A stretch of 26,132 nucleotides of DNA. It comes from a virus. The DNA is taken from IMG/VR virus record IMGVR_UViG_3300006928_000065, positions 1-26,132 of that record, one strand, 5' to 3'. Below the pieces are notes generated by a model. The model was not told the origin of the DNA and ran no database searches. It saw only the letters and a program-made list of their open reading frames with translations. Positions 11,567 through 22,855 of this stretch are shown here, in pieces; position 1 is the first letter of the stretch; each line of letters starts with the position of its first letter. The translations under genes and the position numbers were made by a program.

Positions 11567-11580
11567 TTAATTTAATTTAA
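11564..11580 (-). promoter_or_regulatory. A/T-only start leader shared with the giant gene
   Basis: The minus strand reads AAATTAAATTAAATG, 15 bases identical to the leader of the giant gene (9333-9347). The leader contains the stop of the upstream muzzle-core gene. There is no Shine-Dalgarno sequence, consistent with Bacteroidetes-type initiation. Confidence 0.45.
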
Positions 11581-13049
11581 TATCCGTTGTTAGCTATAAA
11601 ATCACTACTAACATTAAATAATTCTTTTTCTCCTCCGTTATTTGTAACTGTATCAGTAGCTATTGTAACTGTACTTACAAAACCTTTAATACCAGATATA
11701 GAACTACCAAAGTTTATTTCACCAGGAGCAGCACTACTATTATTAATAAGATTAGCTACATACTTATTTTCTTTTCTATTAAATCCAGAATAGAAAAATG
11801 GTGGAACAGTTGCGTTTGGATATTCATTACCTGCTGAATCATATTGACCTTGAGTATAACTATATACTTGAGCAGTTGTATCTTGAAAATTTATCCAGTT
11901 TGAATTTGTTGTTACCGTGTTTTCTCCTGTTAAATCAGAAGTAAAAGAATTAACTTGCCAACCATTTGTTCCTTCATATTCTACTGTTTTAAATGTTTTT
12001 GATGAACTTGGGTTAGCATTAAAAACAAAAGTTATAGAAGTAGGTTTTATAGCTTGACCTTCATTGGAATAAAATAAGTTTCTATTTACACCACTAGAAT
12101 AATGCTGATATAAATTACCAAATTTTAAACTATAAAATTTATTATTTAAACTAAACATTGCTTCTGGTTTATATGTAAAAAAGCTAGTCCAACCTTGAAC
12201 AAGGTTATCAAAAGCTACTGTTTCATATCCTCCTTCTAAAGTATCAGCTTGTGCTCCAGGTTCTTGTGTAGATACGAGATATTGTTTATTATGTATATCC
12301 CAACCACCTATAATTCTTCCTGTTACTCCACCTACTGTAATACCTGATCCTAATCTATCTCTAAAATAATCTATCATATTAGCTCTAGATATCTCAACTA
12401 AACCTCCAGATAATTTTAAAACAGTTCCATTATTTCTATCAGTAAAATACTTATCTGTACCGTACACTGCAAAACTTGTAGGGTCATTACTAATACCGTA
12501 TTTACCTGCATAAGGTTGAATAGCACCAATAACAAGGTTAGCACTGGTAACAGTTCCACCACCTTCAGCAGAATATATAGCGTCTTTATCAATTAAAGCT
12601 CTACTAATTTTTAATTCTTGAAATATATTTAAATTCGTATCTTCAGCATAAAGTTTTTGTATAGATCCATTTGCGGGGTCTACAGATTTAACTATGTTAT
12701 CACCAACTGAAAACATGTTAGTGTTATTTATACCTGTTCTAGAATTAAATATACCTGAATATATTAAAGAGTTTCCACGTCTAGACCCATTAGGTTCTTC
12801 TTCTACTAAATAAGCTTTAGCACCAAAAGAAACTGAAGTATTATTATAACCACCATTGATTCTAGATTCTTCTATAACCCAGTTTTGAGGAACATCTGCA
12901 GCAGATACAGGATAACCTCCTTTAGCAGCAGGTACACCCATCGAACCATTCCAAGAAGGTATGTTTCCATAACTAGGACTTGAAATTGTTTGGTTCACTT
13001 TCTTTAGAAGAAATGTATTGAAGTATTTAACTTCTATTATAGCAGCCAT
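11577..13049 (-). CDS. Muzzle-family C-terminal core as a separate protein (490 aa)
   Basis: Residues 57-165 carry a very recognisable block: WVIEESRINGGYNNTSVSFG, KAYLVEEE, RGNSLIYSGIFNSRTGINNT, SVDPANGSIQKLYAEDTNL and SRALIDKDAIYSAEG. The block YAGKYGISNDPTSFAVYG, KYFTDRNNGTVLKLSGG follows. In the phages I remember, this block belongs to the C-terminal part of the same long protein that starts with MNKDLD, so here the muzzle seems to be encoded by two genes. The N-terminus IIEVKYFNTFLLKK also reads like an internal muzzle segment. The 30-base gap to the upstream gene is in frame and free of further stops after the tandem TAA. The two products are expected to assemble in the same tail structure. 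That they are two halves is an inference from family memory; the separation itself is plain in the sequence. Confidence 0.65.
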   Translation of the reverse strand: MAAIIEVKYFNTFLLKKVNQTISSPSYGNIPSWNGSMGVPAAKGGYPVSAADVPQNWVIEESRINGGYNNTSVSFGAKAYLVEEEPNGSRRGNSLIYSGIFNSRTGINNTNMFSVGDNIVKSVDPANGSIQKLYAEDTNLNIFQELKISRALIDKDAIYSAEGGGTVTSANLVIGAIQPYAGKYGISNDPTSFAVYGTDKYFTDRNNGTVLKLSGGLVEISRANMIDYFRDRLGSGITVGGVTGRIIGGWDIHNKQYLVSTQEPGAQADTLEGGYETVAFDNLVQGWTSFFTYKPEAMFSLNNKFYSLKFGNLYQHYSSGVNRNLFYSNEGQAIKPTSITFVFNANPSSSKTFKTVEYEGTNGWQVNSFTSDLTGENTVTTNSNWINFQDTTAQVYSYTQGQYDSAGNEYPNATVPPFFYSGFNRKENKYVANLINNSSAAPGEINFGSSISGIKGFVSTVTIATDTVTNNGGEKELFNVSSDFIANNGY

Positions 13050-13079: not shown

Positions 13080-16000
13080 TTACAACCCGTTACAAGTGTT
13101 AAATGGATCAGGATTATTTAATGCTAGTTTAGTAAATTTAGTACCTAAACTATTTTGTGTATAAGTAGTGTCTTGAGCACACACATAGTTACCAGTACTA
13201 CCAATTCCTCCTGGGTTGGTGTCAAAAAATCCTATGTTTCTTTGTTCACCTTCACAATCAGTGTAATTAAGTGATATAAAATCACCACTATCAGTCCACG
13301 TATATTTCCAAGTATAACAAGGTGTTCTTTGTATATCTAAAGTAAAATTACACGTAGCGGTTAAAGCACCAGCATCTTCTACAGTAGCTACACAAGCGTA
13401 TTGTCCATCTACCATGCTATTAGGAGTATCACCTCCAGTGAAATTACAGTTAACATTCCAATAATTATTAACCCGTGATTGAATCAATTGTACTGCGCCA
13501 GTTCCTTGTGGACCATAATCTACACCACCTTTGGTAACTGTAAGTCTCCATGTTAAATCTTTCCAAGCTTGAGGATTTGTTACTCCTAGTCCAAAAGCAG
13601 CTCCATTTGTTGCTTGAAGAACTTTAAAAGTTCCTAAAGGATTTGAACCGTTACCGGTTCCTGGAACATAAATAGGAGGATTACCACATGTACTAGCTAA
13701 AACTACAGGAGCTAAATTTATCAAAGACACAGGTTGTTTTGTAATAAACGTCTGAACACCAGCGTGGTTAATCTCAAATTTAAAAGAATAAGTATCACTA
13801 GTAGCATGCTGATTACTATAGTAAAAGGTATCTTGAACCTTTACATTGTAGTTGCTACCATCTCTTACTAAATTAAATACCGCTGTATTACTAACTCCTT
13901 CATTAGTACTAGTAATTACATTGTTATTAAAATCTCTAACCTCTACTAATTGAAATTGAGGCGGATTAGTTGCAGCATAGGTTATACTATTACCAAATTG
14001 ATCTAGTATAGAAAAATCTGATGAACACATTTCATTGTTTCCCGCTTGAGTATTTATTCCTTCATCAAAGTCATTAGTATTAAAACCAAATGAAACACCT
14101 TCAGCAGTACCACCTGATATTGCTTGATTTAAATCAGTTATTAACCCAGCTGTACTTGTTTCCCAAAATATATCTAAGTTAGATTCTACAGGATCTGTTT
14201 CCATCACGGCTAGCTGAGGCATTGTAACCCAATTATTAGCATTTATAGGAGTTGGTGTAAATGTTAAAACATCACCAACAGAAGTACCAGCTGTGTTTTG
14301 ATTTAATACTATTTTACGGAAACCACTATCATTTGAAACCGAAAGAACTAAAGTTCCATCTAATATTCCAGGTCCAGTAACTGTTTGTCCAGATGTTACT
14401 GCAGCAGCGGCAGGAGTAGGACTTATAGAAGCTGTTGTTAAACCAAGAGTATCTAAACCTCCTAAACCAGTAGAACCTACAGTTCCGGTTACTATAACTG
14501 CTGCTACACCAAATTTTCCAGAAGGTGTATTTATTCTACCAATTAAAGGATTTGAAATAACATTATAAAAATCAGCACTACCTACATAACCTGTTTGTGA
14601 TATACCGTTAAACATGTCATCATCAGTAGCTATAACACTTACTATAGGAGCAATAGCTCCAGGATAATATTGAGTATTATTTTGCCAAACATCAACGCTG
14701 TCTACGTTTTCTACTCTTCCATGTAATACTACACTGCTCCTAAATTGTTTTTGTTCTGGTCCTACTTCTATTAAATCTCTAGGGACTTTATTAATATTAT
14801 CATTAAATAATACAGTGTGAGATGTTTTACCTAATTCTTTAGTTGGATCTGTAGGGTAAGCAGCCATTACACCAGGTAAATATACATTGTAATATTCTTG
14901 TTCTGTTTGTTTCACAACTACTTTATAAGAGTACCAACCTAATGGATTATAATCTGCACTAGTAGGATCACCATTGTAGATACCTGTTGTTCCACCTGAT
15001 ATAGGATTATTAAATAAAACTTTTAAAGAATTTCCAGGAAAAGATAAAGCTTCTACACTTGAAGCTATATATCTTGAAAAAACAGTAGAACCTAAATAAG
15101 ATTCATTGTTGAATTTAACAGAGCTATCTCCATCGGATAATATTACTGTAGATTGTCTACCAAACTTATCTGATAATACTATACCTACTTGATAATTTCT
15201 ATTTTGTTTTAACGAATGATTAGGATATTCTATTTTACTTGTTGTGTATCTTACGTTGTTAGGTGCGGTAAAAGTAAGCGTTGAATTTGCGGCTAAAGCA
15301 CCAGCTAACCCGGCAGATAATGTAATTGTAGTACCAGTGTTTGAAGCAATAACAGTATTACCTGCAATTGCTCCCGCAACATTAGATGTTACTGTATATC
15401 CATTTGCCCACGAACCGCTTGGTGTATTTATAGCGATAACAGTTTCTCCTTGAGGTTCTAAAGCAGTATTTGTAGTCGTTGCTGTACCTAAATTAAAATC
15501 CGATTTTGCACTTACCGCAACATTGTAATCTATAGTACTTGGAGGAGTGTGTTTATCTAGGAAATTTCCATATACAACTCTATTACTTATAATTTCTTGA
15601 GACAAAGCTCTTACAGGTACTTTGTCATATGTTCTTGTTGTTTCACTAGAAGGTAAAACTTTATAGGGTTTTGTAGATTGATATTCATATTCAAAAACAC
15701 TAGAATCACCAAATGTTAAACCAGCATTATTTGCTAAACTTTGAGGAGTAGATAAAACAAGAGCACTTCCACCGTCATAACTTACTACAGTAGGATTATT
15801 AACTACACCGTCTCCACTAACCAAAGCACCTACTTTAATAGAACCTGAAACATTATCTATAGCTACAGCTGTAGTAGTAGTTGTTGCTCCATTTACATCT
15901 GCTCTACCATATCCATTTTTAATTCTAGACATTGGAATTGTTTCAATAACATTAATATTAGTTGAATTAGATTCTTTATACAATATATCTATGTCTGTTA

Positions 16001-17231
16001 TTTTAAAAGTTTTATTTAAATTACTAGAAGTTGCTGGTAATGGTATTCTTAATATTATTTTATTAACTTTATTTTCCATAAATTCAACAACAGTACTTCT
16101 ATAAGTATCTTCTTCATCTTGAACATCTAGTATAGGACTATTATTTTTAGTACCCACACCTGCTGTAGCACTTTCTTCATTCACCTTATATCTAAAATAA
16201 CCATCTTGCTTTGGTATAAAACATTCTTGAGTAAACGGTGACATTATAGAATATTCACCATTTTCAAACTTATATCTATAAGCAAATCTTACAAATAATT
16301 CTTCTAAATAATCTGAATCACCATTATAATTTGTTTGATAATAAGGATTGTAATTAAATATAACAGTTGTACCTGCATCTATAGTGTATGTAGGAGTTTG
16401 TGTTTGAGTATTTACTGTAAAATAAGTATTATTGGATCCATTAACACTTGCTACTGTTTGACTAGTTTCAATAAAGTCACCATCATTATTAATATAAGCT
16501 ATAGTAGCACCATAAGGTAAATCACCTTGATAACCATTTCTTACAATTTTTATACCGGTAACATTACTTGAATACGCGCTCTCTGTAACACCTTCGCCAC
16601 CATCAGGATAATATCTACTTACAACATCATACATAGATGTTTCATAATCAGTAGCTGTATTTGATGCTGGTCTATATAACTCTATTGGTTGATAAGGATT
16701 ATATTTAGCAACAGATATTTGATCTTCAGTTGTATAGTATGCTGGATTAGTACTATTATTTGGGTTAGCTAAAGATACGTTTATAACTCTTGGTTGATTT
16801 CTATTATCTGTCCAAAATAATAAATCTTCTAATATATTTACACCAGTTATCGGGAACAGTGTAGAAAAATTAAGAAAAGCTCCTTTAACTAATATAGAAG
16901 ATGATTCAGTTAAAGCGTTATATTGCATGATCCAAGATGTTGAGTTTGTATTATATGCGTCAGCTGTGTTACTTGCTAAAAATATAAAAACTCTACTATT
17001 AATTTCATCAGTACAATAACCTATAGCAAACAAATCATCTTCACCAGCTAAATCTCTTAAATCTGCAACCCTAATATTACCTAAAACATTTTCTAATGCT
17101 CCAACATTAGGACCTTCAGATCTACTTACCTGAGCATTTACTGCATTTCTATATTCATCTCTAGGTAATAATCGATCATCAAGATCTTTATTCATTCTAC
17201 CTTTAATGAAATTATTGGTTACTTTTGCCAT
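13080..17231 (-). CDS. Muzzle / tail stabilisation protein, N-terminal part with adhesion-like C-terminus (1383 aa)
   Basis: The N-terminus (NNFIKGRMNKDLDDRLLPRD, EYRNAVNAQVSRSEGPNVGA, LENVLGN) is the hallmark I know from muzzle or stabilisation proteins of crAss-like and marine podovirus-like phages, which form the distal part of the short tail. Three beta modules of similar pattern, with GNTVIASN-like and TITLS-like strands, occur near residues 446-509, 587-657 and 909-990. From about residue 1050 the character changes to Ig- or cadherin-like beta sequence (SLINLAPVVLAS near residue 1165). It ends with a Cys-rich domain from about residue 1300 (PCYTWKYTW, ISLNYTDCEGEQ). By my count eight of the eleven cysteines lie in the last ~220 residues. 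The conserved C-terminal core of the family is missing here and is found in the next ORF. The gene stops with tandem TAA TAA, 30 bases and in frame upstream of that ORF. Confidence 0.7.
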   Translation of the reverse strand: MAKVTNNFIKGRMNKDLDDRLLPRDEYRNAVNAQVSRSEGPNVGALENVLGNIRVADLRDLAGEDDLFAIGYCTDEINSRVFIFLASNTADAYNTNSTSWIMQYNALTESSSILVKGAFLNFSTLFPITGVNILEDLLFWTDNRNQPRVINVSLANPNNSTNPAYYTTEDQISVAKYNPYQPIELYRPASNTATDYETSMYDVVSRYYPDGGEGVTESAYSSNVTGIKIVRNGYQGDLPYGATIAYINNDGDFIETSQTVASVNGSNNTYFTVNTQTQTPTYTIDAGTTVIFNYNPYYQTNYNGDSDYLEELFVRFAYRYKFENGEYSIMSPFTQECFIPKQDGYFRYKVNEESATAGVGTKNNSPILDVQDEEDTYRSTVVEFMENKVNKIILRIPLPATSSNLNKTFKITDIDILYKESNSTNINVIETIPMSRIKNGYGRADVNGATTTTTAVAIDNVSGSIKVGALVSGDGVVNNPTVVSYDGGSALVLSTPQSLANNAGLTFGDSSVFEYEYQSTKPYKVLPSSETTRTYDKVPVRALSQEIISNRVVYGNFLDKHTPPSTIDYNVAVSAKSDFNLGTATTTNTALEPQGETVIAINTPSGSWANGYTVTSNVAGAIAGNTVIASNTGTTITLSAGLAGALAANSTLTFTAPNNVRYTTSKIEYPNHSLKQNRNYQVGIVLSDKFGRQSTVILSDGDSSVKFNNESYLGSTVFSRYIASSVEALSFPGNSLKVLFNNPISGGTTGIYNGDPTSADYNPLGWYSYKVVVKQTEQEYYNVYLPGVMAAYPTDPTKELGKTSHTVLFNDNINKVPRDLIEVGPEQKQFRSSVVLHGRVENVDSVDVWQNNTQYYPGAIAPIVSVIATDDDMFNGISQTGYVGSADFYNVISNPLIGRINTPSGKFGVAAVIVTGTVGSTGLGGLDTLGLTTASISPTPAAAAVTSGQTVTGPGILDGTLVLSVSNDSGFRKIVLNQNTAGTSVGDVLTFTPTPINANNWVTMPQLAVMETDPVESNLDIFWETSTAGLITDLNQAISGGTAEGVSFGFNTNDFDEGINTQAGNNEMCSSDFSILDQFGNSITYAATNPPQFQLVEVRDFNNNVITSTNEGVSNTAVFNLVRDGSNYNVKVQDTFYYSNQHATSDTYSFKFEINHAGVQTFITKQPVSLINLAPVVLASTCGNPPIYVPGTGNGSNPLGTFKVLQATNGAAFGLGVTNPQAWKDLTWRLTVTKGGVDYGPQGTGAVQLIQSRVNNYWNVNCNFTGGDTPNSMVDGQYACVATVEDAGALTATCNFTLDIQRTPCYTWKYTWTDSGDFISLNYTDCEGEQRNIGFFDTNPGGIGSTGNYVCAQDTTYTQNSLGTKFTKLALNNPDPFNTCNGL
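14260..14505 (-). other. Beta module 3 in the muzzle protein (residues ~909-990)
   Basis: This is a third occurrence of the pattern: AVIVTGTVGSTG, TSGQTVTGPGILDGTLVLSV, KIVLNQNTAG and DVLTFTP. It is more divergent and longer than the other two. Confidence 0.45.
15260..15470 (-). other. Beta module 2 in the muzzle protein (residues ~587-657)
   Basis: This segment has the same pattern: Thr-rich entry, ETVIAINTPSG, GNTVIASNTGTTITLSAG and STLTFTAP. It begins and ends in recognisable muzzle sequence, so it appears as an insertion. Confidence 0.5.
15705..15895 (-). other. Beta module 1 in the muzzle protein (residues ~446-509)
   Basis: The segment shows a module pattern: Thr-rich entry, a KVGALVSGDGVV turn, PTVVSYDGG, then ALVLSTP and LTFGDSS strands. 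This is the kind of short repeat seen in phage tail fibres, and it is inserted between otherwise family-like muzzle segments. Confidence 0.5.
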
Positions 17232-17237
17232 TAAATT

Positions 17238-18464
17238 TTAGTGTTTAATCCATTTAGATTGACCTCTCATTACTTGAACTATTTCTTCAAGTTTAATATT
17301 TGATAATCTTATCTTAGCATTTCTTAATGATGCTCTTCTATCTTTTTTAAATCTTGCTACTAGACCTTCAGGAACACCTGCTCTACCAGCTAATAAATTA
17401 TATGATATACTCATATACATTGCTTCTTCAGCCATTTTAGGCACTCTAGTATCTAAATCATAAGCAAGTCCATCAGATATGTACTCTAATACAATTAATC
17501 TATCTCTTAAGTTACTAGAAAAAGTAAACTTACCTTCTCTTTCATTTATTCCAAACCATCCATTAGTGTTAGAATATTGAGGATCTATTCCATATAATCT
17601 TCCCCAGTTCCAAGGTCCTGATCCAAAATCATTAGAGTACCATCCGTAAGCCCATTCATCTTGTAAATATAAAGCTTCTTCATTTAATAATCTATTAGGG
17701 TTAGTATCTTGCCATCTTTCTACAGTTAATGATGTTCCTTCTAAATCTTCACCAAAATTATCTTGAGTTGGTACTCCTGTGTTATCTTGTAATAATTTAG
17801 TATAAGGATTTATAGTTAAATTATTGTTAGGATATAAAGGTCTTTTTACTCCATAATGATCTATCCAAGACAATGCTACATAATTAACATAATCTTGTGG
17901 CATAATTAAAGATAAATTATCTGGTACAGTTAATTCTTGAGATTTAATACTTTTTAAAGTATCATAACTAAATTCTTGTAAAGATCGTTTAGCAAAAAAT
18001 AATACATCAGATTTTTTAGCGGTTTGAAGTATTTTTCCATCACCTACATAACCAACCATGTAATTATCTATTATATCTCCTAGTTTTATATATTGATAGC
18101 TGCCATAGTTTTCTTCTACTGCATCTCCTACCGCTTCTTCTGCTGGAGTATTAGCATACTGACCACCAGTTAATATTTTTAATTGTACAACTATATATAA
18201 ATTATTAGCAGGATTAGCAGCAAATGTTATAGCGTTTCGAGTTACAGAATATTGTAACACATACTCAGTCCAACTACCTGGAAAACCTGTAGTACTAGTA
18301 TATATTTTAAAATTATTTAAAGCATATTCAGCTACTGCTGGATTCCAACTACCATACAAAAGATCAGTATTAAACGTGGTTGTTATAGTTAGTGCACCTC
18401 CTGTTCCTCTAAAGCCTTGTGAGCCTTGATAATATTGTTGGTTAGTTTCTGTTATTTGCGCCAT
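17238..18464 (-). CDS. Head-to-tail connector protein with extra N-terminal beta domain (408 aa)
   Basis: From about residue 125 onward the protein carries a conserved block (GDIIDNYMVGYVGDGKILQ, KSDVLFFAKRSLQEFSYDTL, SLIMPQDYVNYVALSWIDHY, GVKRPLYP). I recognise it as a connector/tail-accessory family of marine podovirus-like phages, often labelled P22 gp4-like. The C-terminus contains a conserved helical region (RVPKMAEEAMYMSISYNLLA, then a basic FKKDRRASLRNAKIRLSN). Residues about 20-100 are an extra beta-rich domain (LTITTTFNTDLLYGSW, EYVLQYSVTRNAITFAANP, NLYIVVQLK). Its spacing resembles the N-terminal attachment domain of T7-type tail fibres, which suggests it may anchor another tail component. 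It is coupled to the upstream ring gene by TAATG and lies 6 bases ahead of the muzzle gene. The connector role is inferred from family and context. Confidence 0.65.
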   Translation of the reverse strand: MAQITETNQQYYQGSQGFRGTGGALTITTTFNTDLLYGSWNPAVAEYALNNFKIYTSTTGFPGSWTEYVLQYSVTRNAITFAANPANNLYIVVQLKILTGGQYANTPAEEAVGDAVEENYGSYQYIKLGDIIDNYMVGYVGDGKILQTAKKSDVLFFAKRSLQEFSYDTLKSIKSQELTVPDNLSLIMPQDYVNYVALSWIDHYGVKRPLYPNNNLTINPYTKLLQDNTGVPTQDNFGEDLEGTSLTVERWQDTNPNRLLNEEALYLQDEWAYGWYSNDFGSGPWNWGRLYGIDPQYSNTNGWFGINEREGKFTFSSNLRDRLIVLEYISDGLAYDLDTRVPKMAEEAMYMSISYNLLAGRAGVPEGLVARFKKDRRASLRNAKIRLSNIKLEEIVQVMRGQSKWIKH

Positions 18465-19213: not shown

Positions 19214-19230
19214 TATATTTTTTTTATTAT

Positions 19231-19263
19231 AATACAGAGGTGACAAAGTGTCACCCCTCTATT
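19231..19263 (-). terminator. Stem-loop between the split gene and the ring/adaptor gene
   Basis: On the minus strand the arms AGAGGGGTGACA and TGTCACCTCT pair around a CTT loop: ten pairs including one G-U, then a mismatch and four A/T pairs. From the plus strand, that G-U pair is a C-A mismatch, so the fold again favours minus-strand RNA. It lies in the 61-base gap if the next gene starts at 19213. No strong U-tract follows, so attenuation or mRNA end protection is as likely as full termination. Confidence 0.6.
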
Positions 19264-19274
19264 ATTATCACTTG

Positions 19275-19661
19275 TTAATTGAGCTTTTTATCTATAGATT
19301 TATAAATTTCTACTCCCTCATCTGTTTTCAAGAAAGCAGCAAAAGCTGAATAAGGGTTTTCATCAAAAGGAACATTCATTAACTTCCTGTTGTTTGATCC
19401 CCAAGAGAACGTTCTTTGATCTTGAGACAGCTTTATTATACCTAGTTCCCTAGCTTTAATAGAAAAATTTCTCAATTGCACATTCTCATCATTAGCTAAT
19501 GCAATAAATAACTTTGGATTATTTTTTGCAAACAATAATAAATCTCTTTTAATTTCTTTAGAGCTCATATTATTTACTTCAGAACCTTTTTCAACTCTCA
19601 ATATAGCTTCAGCATGATCTATATCTATGTTTCTAGCTGCATTTAATGCTTCTATTTCCAT
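19275..19661 (-). CDS. Conserved virion-module protein, C-terminal half (128 aa)
   Basis: This ORF encodes ALNAARNIDIDHAEAILRVE, SSKEIKRDLLLFAKNNPKLF, DENVQLRNFSIKARELGII, RTFSWGSNNRKLMNVPFDEN and AFAAFLKTDEGVEIYKSI. In my recollection this is the C-terminal half of the same protein whose N-terminal half is encoded immediately upstream in the same frame. The region looks mostly helical and has no catalytic motif I can name. The ATG at 19659-19661 is the first in-frame start after the TAA. It is preceded by GATTTAGAA, with no Shine-Dalgarno sequence, so efficient independent initiation would depend on coupling to termination nine bases upstream. Its strong sequence conservation, with no further disruption, argues that the half is still expressed. 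A stem-loop follows the gene. Confidence 0.65.
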   Translation of the reverse strand: MEIEALNAARNIDIDHAEAILRVEKGSEVNNMSSKEIKRDLLLFAKNNPKLFIALANDENVQLRNFSIKARELGIIKLSQDQRTFSWGSNNRKLMNVPFDENPYSAFAAFLKTDEGVEIYKSIDKKLN

Positions 19662-19673
19662 TTCTAAATCTTA
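19662..19673 (-). other. In-frame TAA plus three sense codons joining two half-genes
   Basis: The minus strand reads GAA TTA TAA GAT TTA GAA ATG, so the upstream frame passes through one stop into the downstream ATG without a frame change. Without the stop, the ORF would span 19275-20057 and encode 260 residues, the length I remember for the unsplit family. A single base change from GAA, AAA, CAA, TAT or TAC gives TAA. Confidence 0.75.
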
Positions 19674-20057
19674 TAATTCATCTTTAGCTTCTGCTACAGC
19701 ACTATACTCTTCATATATTTTATTTTTTAAAGGGTGATATAGTGAAAGTAGTTTTTGTAAATTCTGTTTATTTTTAGGAACTTTCAAAAAACCGTCTCTA
19801 AAAATTATATGACCCATCGTTGCTTCACCTTTTTGTTCGTCGACTAATGGTGAATCTTGATTGGTTGCATATCTTATTTCTCTTTGTTTTCCTGTAGTCT
19901 CATCAAACCAAAGTAATGCATGCTTTTTTGAATGCTTACCTGGTATTGTTAAAGTTAAAGGAGACTTATCTCCTTTTAAATAATAAACTCTATCTCTTAC
20001 TTCCCATTTTGGGCCTTGAGGTTTTTTAACCTCTACTTTTTTTTCATTTTTTGACAT
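19671..20057 (-). CDS. Conserved virion-module protein, N-terminal half (128 aa), split by in-frame TAA
   Basis: This ORF encodes 128 residues with KWEVRDRVYYLKGDKSPLTL, HALLWFDETTGKQREIRYA, GEATMGHIIFRDGFLKVP and LLSLYHPLKNKIYEE. I recognise this as the N-terminal half of a protein of about 250-260 residues found just after the capsid gene in marine podovirus-like contigs; its biochemical role is not known to me. The N-terminus is Lys/Glu-rich and probably flexible. The frame ends at a single TAA (19671-19673), and the same frame continues without another stop through three sense codons into the next ORF, which carries the C-terminal half. Either the two halves are made separately and associate, or the stop is read through, or the stop is a mutation or sequence error. 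The gene is preceded by the repeated A/T-only leader and the capsid hairpin. Confidence 0.65.
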   Translation of the reverse strand: MSKNEKKVEVKKPQGPKWEVRDRVYYLKGDKSPLTLTIPGKHSKKHALLWFDETTGKQREIRYATNQDSPLVDEQKGEATMGHIIFRDGFLKVPKNKQNLQKLLSLYHPLKNKIYEEYSAVAEAKDEL

Positions 20058-20084
20058 AATATAATATAATTAAATAGTTAATAA
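20053..20084 (-). promoter_or_regulatory. A/T-only leader, copy 2 of a repeated start-region element
   Basis: This element is 31/32 identical to 22824-22855. Here it lies between the capsid stem-loop and the start of the gene at 20057. Placement immediately after a terminator-like hairpin makes a promoter or re-initiation role plausible. I found no TAnnTTTG box of the Bacteroidetes housekeeping type in it. Confidence 0.5.
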
Positions 20085-20117
20085 TAATTACCCCGCCCGA
20101 AGACGGGGATAATTATT
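20083..20117 (-). terminator. Stem-loop downstream of the capsid gene, capped by a UUCG tetraloop
   Basis: On the minus strand the core reads CCCCGTC-TTCG-GGCGGGG: seven pairs including one U-G, closing a cUUCGg tetraloop, one of the most stable RNA caps. After a single-base bulge the stem continues with eight A/T pairs. Read from the plus strand, the U-G pair becomes a C-A mismatch, so the structure favours minus-strand RNA. It lies in the 73-base gap after the capsid stop. No clean U-tract follows, so it may attenuate transcription or protect the 3' end of capsid mRNA rather than fully terminate. Confidence 0.7.
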
Positions 20118-20130
20118 TAAATTTGGATTA

Positions 20131-21597
20131 CTATAATCCTTGGAATAAAACGAAGTTGTTAGCAGCTTGAGTTACTAAACATCTTTCAGATAGGAAGTTA
20201 ACCTCCATAGCATCAAGAGTTGAAGTAAATGCACCACCAGCAGCACCAGTTAACCATGATTTCATTCTTCTGTCGTCACCTTGAGAAGCTCTATATCTTA
20301 CGTGTAAGAAAGGTCTTCTAATGTTAGTACCTAAGATTTGATCATAAACAGTACTTGTTCCAGCAGGAACTAATACACCTTCAATTGAATTTGTACCAAC
20401 GATAGCACCTCTAGTAGAAGCATCGTTTAAGTATTTCCAATCAGTTTTATAGAAGTCATAAGAACCTCTTCTAAAACCAGAGAAGCCTAAGTTAAGTGCC
20501 ATTTCTTCTGAATTTTCGAATAAACCGAAAGCAGTACCACCAGCGAAACCACCAGAGATAGAAGCTAACATATCGTCAAAATCAAGAGATGTTTGTCTCT
20601 GTAAGAATAACATGTTTTCTTCAATAGCTCCTTGAGTATCTAGGTTTTTAAGAATAGCATCAAACTCATCAAGTCCTGCAGCCGCTGTAAAACCAACGTT
20701 TACATTACCTCTAGCTCTAATAGCAGCAAATAAACCTTGTGTACCTGGTAAAACAGCAGTAGCATAACTTCCTGCAGCACCATTAACGTTAGCGTTTAAT
20801 TCACCTTCTACCATTGCCATTTCTAAGTAATCTTCGAATCTTAATCTAGTTTCAGATTCAGCTTTTAAATACCAAAGGTATCCAGAAGCACCATCTTCAG
20901 TAGCAACTTCAACCCAACCAATCTGCGCCATATCAGATCCAGTAACAACGTACTGATCTCTTATGATTACTGGTGAGTTAGAAAACTGTGTAAACGAAGG
21001 GTCAACACTTATTCTAGCAGCAGAGTTTCCTACTCCTGCTCCAATACTTGATCCTTTTGTATAATCAGAACCATAAACAAACATTTTTACAGCACCAGTT
21101 GCACCACCACCAGAGATAGTAATACCTTGTGCATCAAATGTTGCGTTAGCAAATGGTTGAACTGTTACGTTACCAGCAGCTCTTGCTGTAACAATACCTT
21201 TTGCTTCTGTCCCGTTAGGGTCTAAAAGCACAACAGTATCATTAATAGATATAACGTTAGTTACACCTGCAACACCAACTGGAATTGTAACAACAGATGC
21301 TAAACCAGCACCAGCTCCTCCTCCTGCAGCTACACCACAGTTGTCATAGGATATATGTAATCTATTTTGTTCAGACCAGATTACTTGATCTGAGGTCATT
21401 GGCATCTCTGCACCGACCATTCTCAAAAAGCCAGATAACGTTCTGTTTCCATAACGCTCTACTTCTTGTTCGTAAATTTCTGGTAAATATTGTTGCGCAA
21501 AGTCATTCGCCCCACCGTTAAAAGCTAAATAAGCTGAAGGTGATGGAGTTTGAATCGGACTTGGAATAATACTACCAAATTGTGGAGATAAACTCAT
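20131..21597 (-). CDS. Major capsid protein (488 aa)
   Basis: This is the shell protein, presumably of HK97 fold. Support comes from its position after portal and scaffold, its length, and its N-terminal block (NDFAQQYLPEIYEQEVERYG, then SGFLRMVGAEMPMTSDQVIW and NRLHISYDNC), which I recognise from major capsid proteins of marine podovirus-like phages. Residues about 92-180 form a Gly/Ala/Val-rich beta segment (ISINDTVVLLDPNGTEAKG, NVTVQPFANATF), which looks like a domain inserted into the capsid fold and could be surface exposed. The C-terminal half contains GSYDFYKTDWKYLND and LHVRYRASQGDDRRM. The gene ends with TAG, and its codons look richer in G and C than its neighbours, as expected for a very highly expressed gene. 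A stem-loop lies just downstream. Confidence 0.85.
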   Translation of the reverse strand: MSLSPQFGSIIPSPIQTPSPSAYLAFNGGANDFAQQYLPEIYEQEVERYGNRTLSGFLRMVGAEMPMTSDQVIWSEQNRLHISYDNCGVAAGGGAGAGLASVVTIPVGVAGVTNVISINDTVVLLDPNGTEAKGIVTARAAGNVTVQPFANATFDAQGITISGGGATGAVKMFVYGSDYTKGSSIGAGVGNSAARISVDPSFTQFSNSPVIIRDQYVVTGSDMAQIGWVEVATEDGASGYLWYLKAESETRLRFEDYLEMAMVEGELNANVNGAAGSYATAVLPGTQGLFAAIRARGNVNVGFTAAAGLDEFDAILKNLDTQGAIEENMLFLQRQTSLDFDDMLASISGGFAGGTAFGLFENSEEMALNLGFSGFRRGSYDFYKTDWKYLNDASTRGAIVGTNSIEGVLVPAGTSTVYDQILGTNIRRPFLHVRYRASQGDDRRMKSWLTGAAGGAFTSTLDAMEVNFLSERCLVTQAANNFVLFQGL

Positions 21598-22828: not shown

Positions 22829-22855
22829 AATATAATATAATTAAATAATTAATAA
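22824..22855 (-). promoter_or_regulatory. A/T-only leader, copy 1 of a repeated start-region element
   Basis: The 28-base gap before the 404-residue gene contains only A and T. Together with the start codon region it matches the leader at 20053-20084 in 31 of 32 positions. Read on the minus strand, the shared core ends TAATTATATTATATT just before ATG, and both genes begin ATG TCA/TCT-like codons. There is no Shine-Dalgarno sequence. It could be a translation-initiation leader of the A-rich Bacteroidetes type or part of a phage late promoter; the sequence alone does not separate these. Confidence 0.5.

Follow-up and report, generated by a model that had tools for sequence, protein, structure and literature searches.

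Crassvirales phages encode a conserved post-capsid protein directly after the major capsid gene, typified by gp33 of phiCrAss001 (330 aa, DNA-binding by annotation only) and by g090 of Cellulophaga phage phi14:2. Closer to the locus described here are the PHROG 34748/16922 proteins of Cellulophaga phage phi40:1 (gp094), the Flavobacterium elemo phages, Maribacter phage Panino, and ctfjg026, which are 249–266 aa long and have the same position and both of the same domains. In the isolate phages elemoA, Panino, and phi40:1, and in the metagenome-derived genome ctfjg026, this protein is a single annotated CDS of 249–266 codons. Recoded and suppressed stop codons are also described in Crassvirales, mostly UGA and UAG in the account given in PMC7886860.

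We analyzed a linear virus record of 26,132 bases (the window, meaning this whole stretch). Its gene order is terminase end, portal, a 404-aa protein in the scaffold position, major capsid protein, post-capsid gene, and tail-barrel-like structural proteins, and most genes in this order have PHROG matches. The window is from a crAss-like podovirus, kin to phages of marine and brackish Bacteroidota. As with Crassvirales gp33-type proteins, the post-capsid gene lies directly downstream of the major capsid gene; the gene after its downstream stem-loop is ring-protein-like. Here, the post-capsid gene is interrupted by an in-frame TAA. The features of the locus are as follows.

20131..21597, minus strand: major capsid protein gene (PHROG 13704; weak Crass_capsid match)
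20091..20108, minus strand (in the segment 20083-20117): terminator-like stem-loop between the capsid gene and the post-capsid gene, present around relatives' genes
20058-20079, minus strand: conserved AT-rich leader, 22 nt, right before the start codon of the post-capsid gene
19671..20057, minus strand: 5' ORF (ORF A), 128 codons plus TAA; N-terminal beta-rich domain of the post-capsid protein (PHROG 34748 profile positions 30-118; strands 23-117 in the model)
19671-19673, minus strand: in-frame TAA private to this contig; a tyrosine codon in the closest relatives and D, E, V, or others elsewhere
19275..19661, minus strand: 3' ORF (ORF B), 128 codons with an ATG start; C-terminal, mostly helical domain (PHROG 34748 profile positions 179-285; helices 127-259 in the model), common to the Crassvirales gp33 family
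19229-19265, minus strand: stem-loop after the post-capsid gene and before the ring-protein-like gene, present around relatives' genes

ORF A and ORF B share one frame on the minus strand (20057..19275) and give 260 positions when the stop is read. Between the TAA and the ATG of ORF B are 9 nt, or three sense codons (D, L, E). A preliminary description of this DNA had reported two same-frame ORFs of 128 codons split by a TAA and three sense codons, and its coordinates, frame, and counts are exact; the strand is minus. It had also given one continuous protein with matching N- and C-terminal blocks as the family's form at this position, with a sense codon in homologs where the window has the TAA, and both statements are borne out by the relatives. 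All 155 relatives with a complete ORF among viral contigs are unsplit, with a single ORF of 253–293 aa and a sense codon at the TAA site, which is freely variable in the family (E, D, V, Y, S, and others). Each half matches its own part of PHROG 34748 and of PHROG 16922, both of which are single-protein families. Both families match the unsplit relative end to end and each spans both halves, and the match to the PHROG 34748 profile extends over both domains.

Once a third scan had been run from a distant member, a profile scan with stops read through yielded 255 matches, which represent 172 distinct proteins and include some contigs twice. An internal stop was present in 1/255 matches, the window alone; these scans may lack records very near the window and could thus overlook a small lineage that shares the stop. 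The other X residues among these matches are N bases or lie beyond the gene, in intervals lengthened by a second weak match. Furthermore, a degenerate DNA pattern of this junction, allowing either TAA or TAG, had no match in 2.9 million viral contigs. The same split, which the preliminary description had proposed to look for in related contigs, was not found in those scanned.

Two near-identical contigs indicate the age of the stop. L162 is 99.80% identical to the window over 12,369 bases and L170 is 99.77% identical over 7,890 bases; in both, the gene is intact with a sense codon at this site. Within the gene, the TAA-making base is the only difference from L162, and the TAA base and one synonymous change are the differences from L170. 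No other nonsense changes or indels were found in the stretches common to the window and these two contigs. In the shared 11.4 kb, the window-private changes are at 17330, 18021, 18239, 19671, and 26032 (three transversions versus two transitions), and of the four that fall in genes, three are protein-altering; the affected sites are fixed in relatives. The window and L170 differ by 14 transitions and 4 transversions; apart from the TAA, those in genes are all synonymous. This substitution pattern, though small in numbers, fits unselected errors or very young alleles.

Because contigs of 99.8% identity are intact and no relative has the stop, the split is specific to one contig and is either very young or an error. 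We therefore read the locus as a contig-specific nonsense change in a normally continuous Crassvirales-type post-capsid gene, arising as a consensus error or as a rare, very young allele, and as neither a conserved split nor a readthrough device (probability about 0.92). In the intact post-capsid gene, a stop results from about 6.4% of single-base changes, so a lone contig-private nonsense change is unremarkable. "Recent mutation or sequencing error" is the only one of the three options in the preliminary description that fits. The gene is normally one piece of about 260–290 codons, and the single nonsense change falls at the linker between its two domains; under this reading, it originated in the assembly consensus or as a rare allele of very recent date. 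If the stop is real, translation would yield the N-terminal domain as a protein of 128 residues, and some ribosomes may restart at the ATG 9 nt on, so that the C-terminal domain would be made separately. Annotation of the locus as two genes, or as a readthrough gene, is unwarranted.

The preliminary description had taken the lack of decay in either half as a sign of selection on both. This does not hold, as the gene is one base from a 99.8%-identical intact contig and there has been no time for decay; a dN/dS of the halves since the split would be based on at most one further change in the gene. With the split private to one contig, both halves should be intact regardless of whether the split has a function.

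The position of the stop bears on whether the two halves could function apart. In the structure that AlphaFold predicts for an unsplit relative (mean pLDDT 81.6, pTM 0.49), the strands lie within residues 23-117 and residues 127-259 form a helical region. The TAA corresponds to residue 129 of this model, where the first helix of the C-terminal domain begins, beside a lower-confidence linker. The break is thus predicted at the boundary between the beta-rich N-terminal domain and the helical C-terminal domain, which explains why both halves look complete. A domain boundary with a nearby downstream ATG could be among the few places where a split is tolerated. Termination-reinitiation over short distances is documented in Escherichia coli and Haloferax, with a steep drop with distance and a coupling-predictive range of −8 to +10 nt (PMC10666635). 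Given such documented coupling, reinitiation at the ATG 9 nt past the TAA, at reduced efficiency, would be plausible if the stop is real. One could therefore propose that the two domains are made separately from a bicistron by termination-reinitiation and then associate. The TAA at the domain boundary, the in-frame ATG at +9 nt, inside that range, and the identity of the remaining residues of both halves to the intact relative are in its favor. However, that identity is expected at 0.2% divergence, and the split, which a functional bicistron should share with related genomes, is common to none of them. The internal Met is also unconserved (50/255, with Leu in 173/255), so the family had no pre-existing internal start. 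We consider a functional split unlikely, and the preliminary description's split gene with associating products is not borne out, with a stop in only one of the 255 matches. Likewise, we see only a slim chance that the TAA exists in a real phage population, whose post-capsid protein would then consist of two domains translated apart, a split tolerated because the break is at the domain linker. Two normally separate genes that merely share one frame have next to no likelihood: the single ORF in all complete relatives rules this out, the described phages agree, and PHROG 34748 and 16922 both cover the two halves.

Regulated stop-codon readthrough, or suppression by a phage or host suppressor tRNA, would instead give short and long forms of one protein. 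PMC7886860 lends this some background, as some of the Crassvirales phages treated there have suppressor tRNAs, in one case for TAA, and the window likewise has an in-frame stop in a conserved crAss-like late gene. However, the phage readthrough described there concerns UGA or UAG, and reassigned TAG or TGA codons occur there in many genes, whereas the window has one TAA in one gene of one contig. TAA is also the usual terminator, ending 13/15 window ORFs, including the post-capsid gene. RNA near the stop shows no excess of structure over shuffled sequences (z −0.6 and −1.2). We found no tRNA in the window, in contigs L162–L171, or in three related contigs of 31–38 kb (about 108 kb of relatives), a search covering part of the window phage's genome and its relatives' contigs. 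In the available sequence, then, the stop is a terminator, no suppressor tRNA is present, and the stop has neither conservation with its context nor a recoding signal. Regulated readthrough as a device, raised in the preliminary description, is not supported, and we regard it as very improbable. An alternative code in which TAA encodes a residue was also considered and is ruled out, as TAA is a regular terminator.

The two stem-loops on either side of the gene, which the preliminary description took as flanks of a regulated unit, do exist (z −3.5 and −5.7). They are uninformative on the split, since they flank the unsplit gene in relatives too: structures below −10 kcal/mol are found upstream at 232/233 loci and downstream at 184/233. 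Their sequences differ greatly between lineages, and RNAalifold shows both-side changes at 6/8 pairs with a covariation term near zero. They may act in termination or RNA processing and so give the post-capsid gene a transcript of its own. In addition, a near-identical 22-nt leader, AAYTATTTAATTATATTATATT, is present at 20058-20079 and 22829-22850 on the minus strand, abutting the starts of the post-capsid and scaffold-position genes. Two matches occurred in 0/100 shuffles. The leader is kept at both places in relatives, is strongly conserved across 86 distinct upstream sequences, and is a candidate shared promoter or translation leader. The leader and the stem-loops alike are features of the gene in its unsplit form.

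We assign the family to the Crassvirales post-capsid proteins of which phiCrAss001 gp33 is typical. Profile comparison with hhalign matched the C-terminal domain to phiCrAss001 gp33, phi14:2 g090, and relatives at 93–94% (E 1e-7 to 2.7e-7; best 94.3%, E 1e-7). The alignment spans the C-terminal 148 columns only and leaves the N-terminal domain outside it. The assignment to the gp33 type thus combines C-terminal homology with a shared position after the major capsid gene, and it joins the marine family (PHROG 34748) to the conserved Crassvirales protein. By gene order, the window family is probably also the crAssphage "gene 75" of PMC7886860. Foldseek against predicted viral structures gave crAss-like matches, including S0A085 of phi14:2 (294 aa, E 1.7e-5). 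As g090, the gene right after the phi14:2 capsid gene, has the same length, we infer that the two are the same protein. Solved structures in the PDB gave no match by sequence and none by fold (best E 0.9), and Pfam had no match to either half and none above cut-off to the unsplit relative.

We also noted that the records for phi40:1 gp094 and phi14:2 g090 have no virion mass spectrometry note, while most neighboring genes have one. The phiCrAss001 virion structure paper makes no mention of gp33. There is a hint here that the conserved post-capsid protein may not stay in the virion, and a non-virion role in assembly is a lead. A separate Foldseek match is BFVD A0A8S5RK61 (virus sp. ctBM815, 162 aa; TM 0.65 by target length, 138 columns), which may be a stand-alone, single-domain version of the post-capsid protein or the product of an uncorrected genetic code. 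Elsewhere in the window, the ORFs at 13080-17231 and 11577-13049 match separate parts of one 1474-aa PHROG (14478), and a muzzle/tail-stabilization-like protein seems to be encoded there as two proteins.
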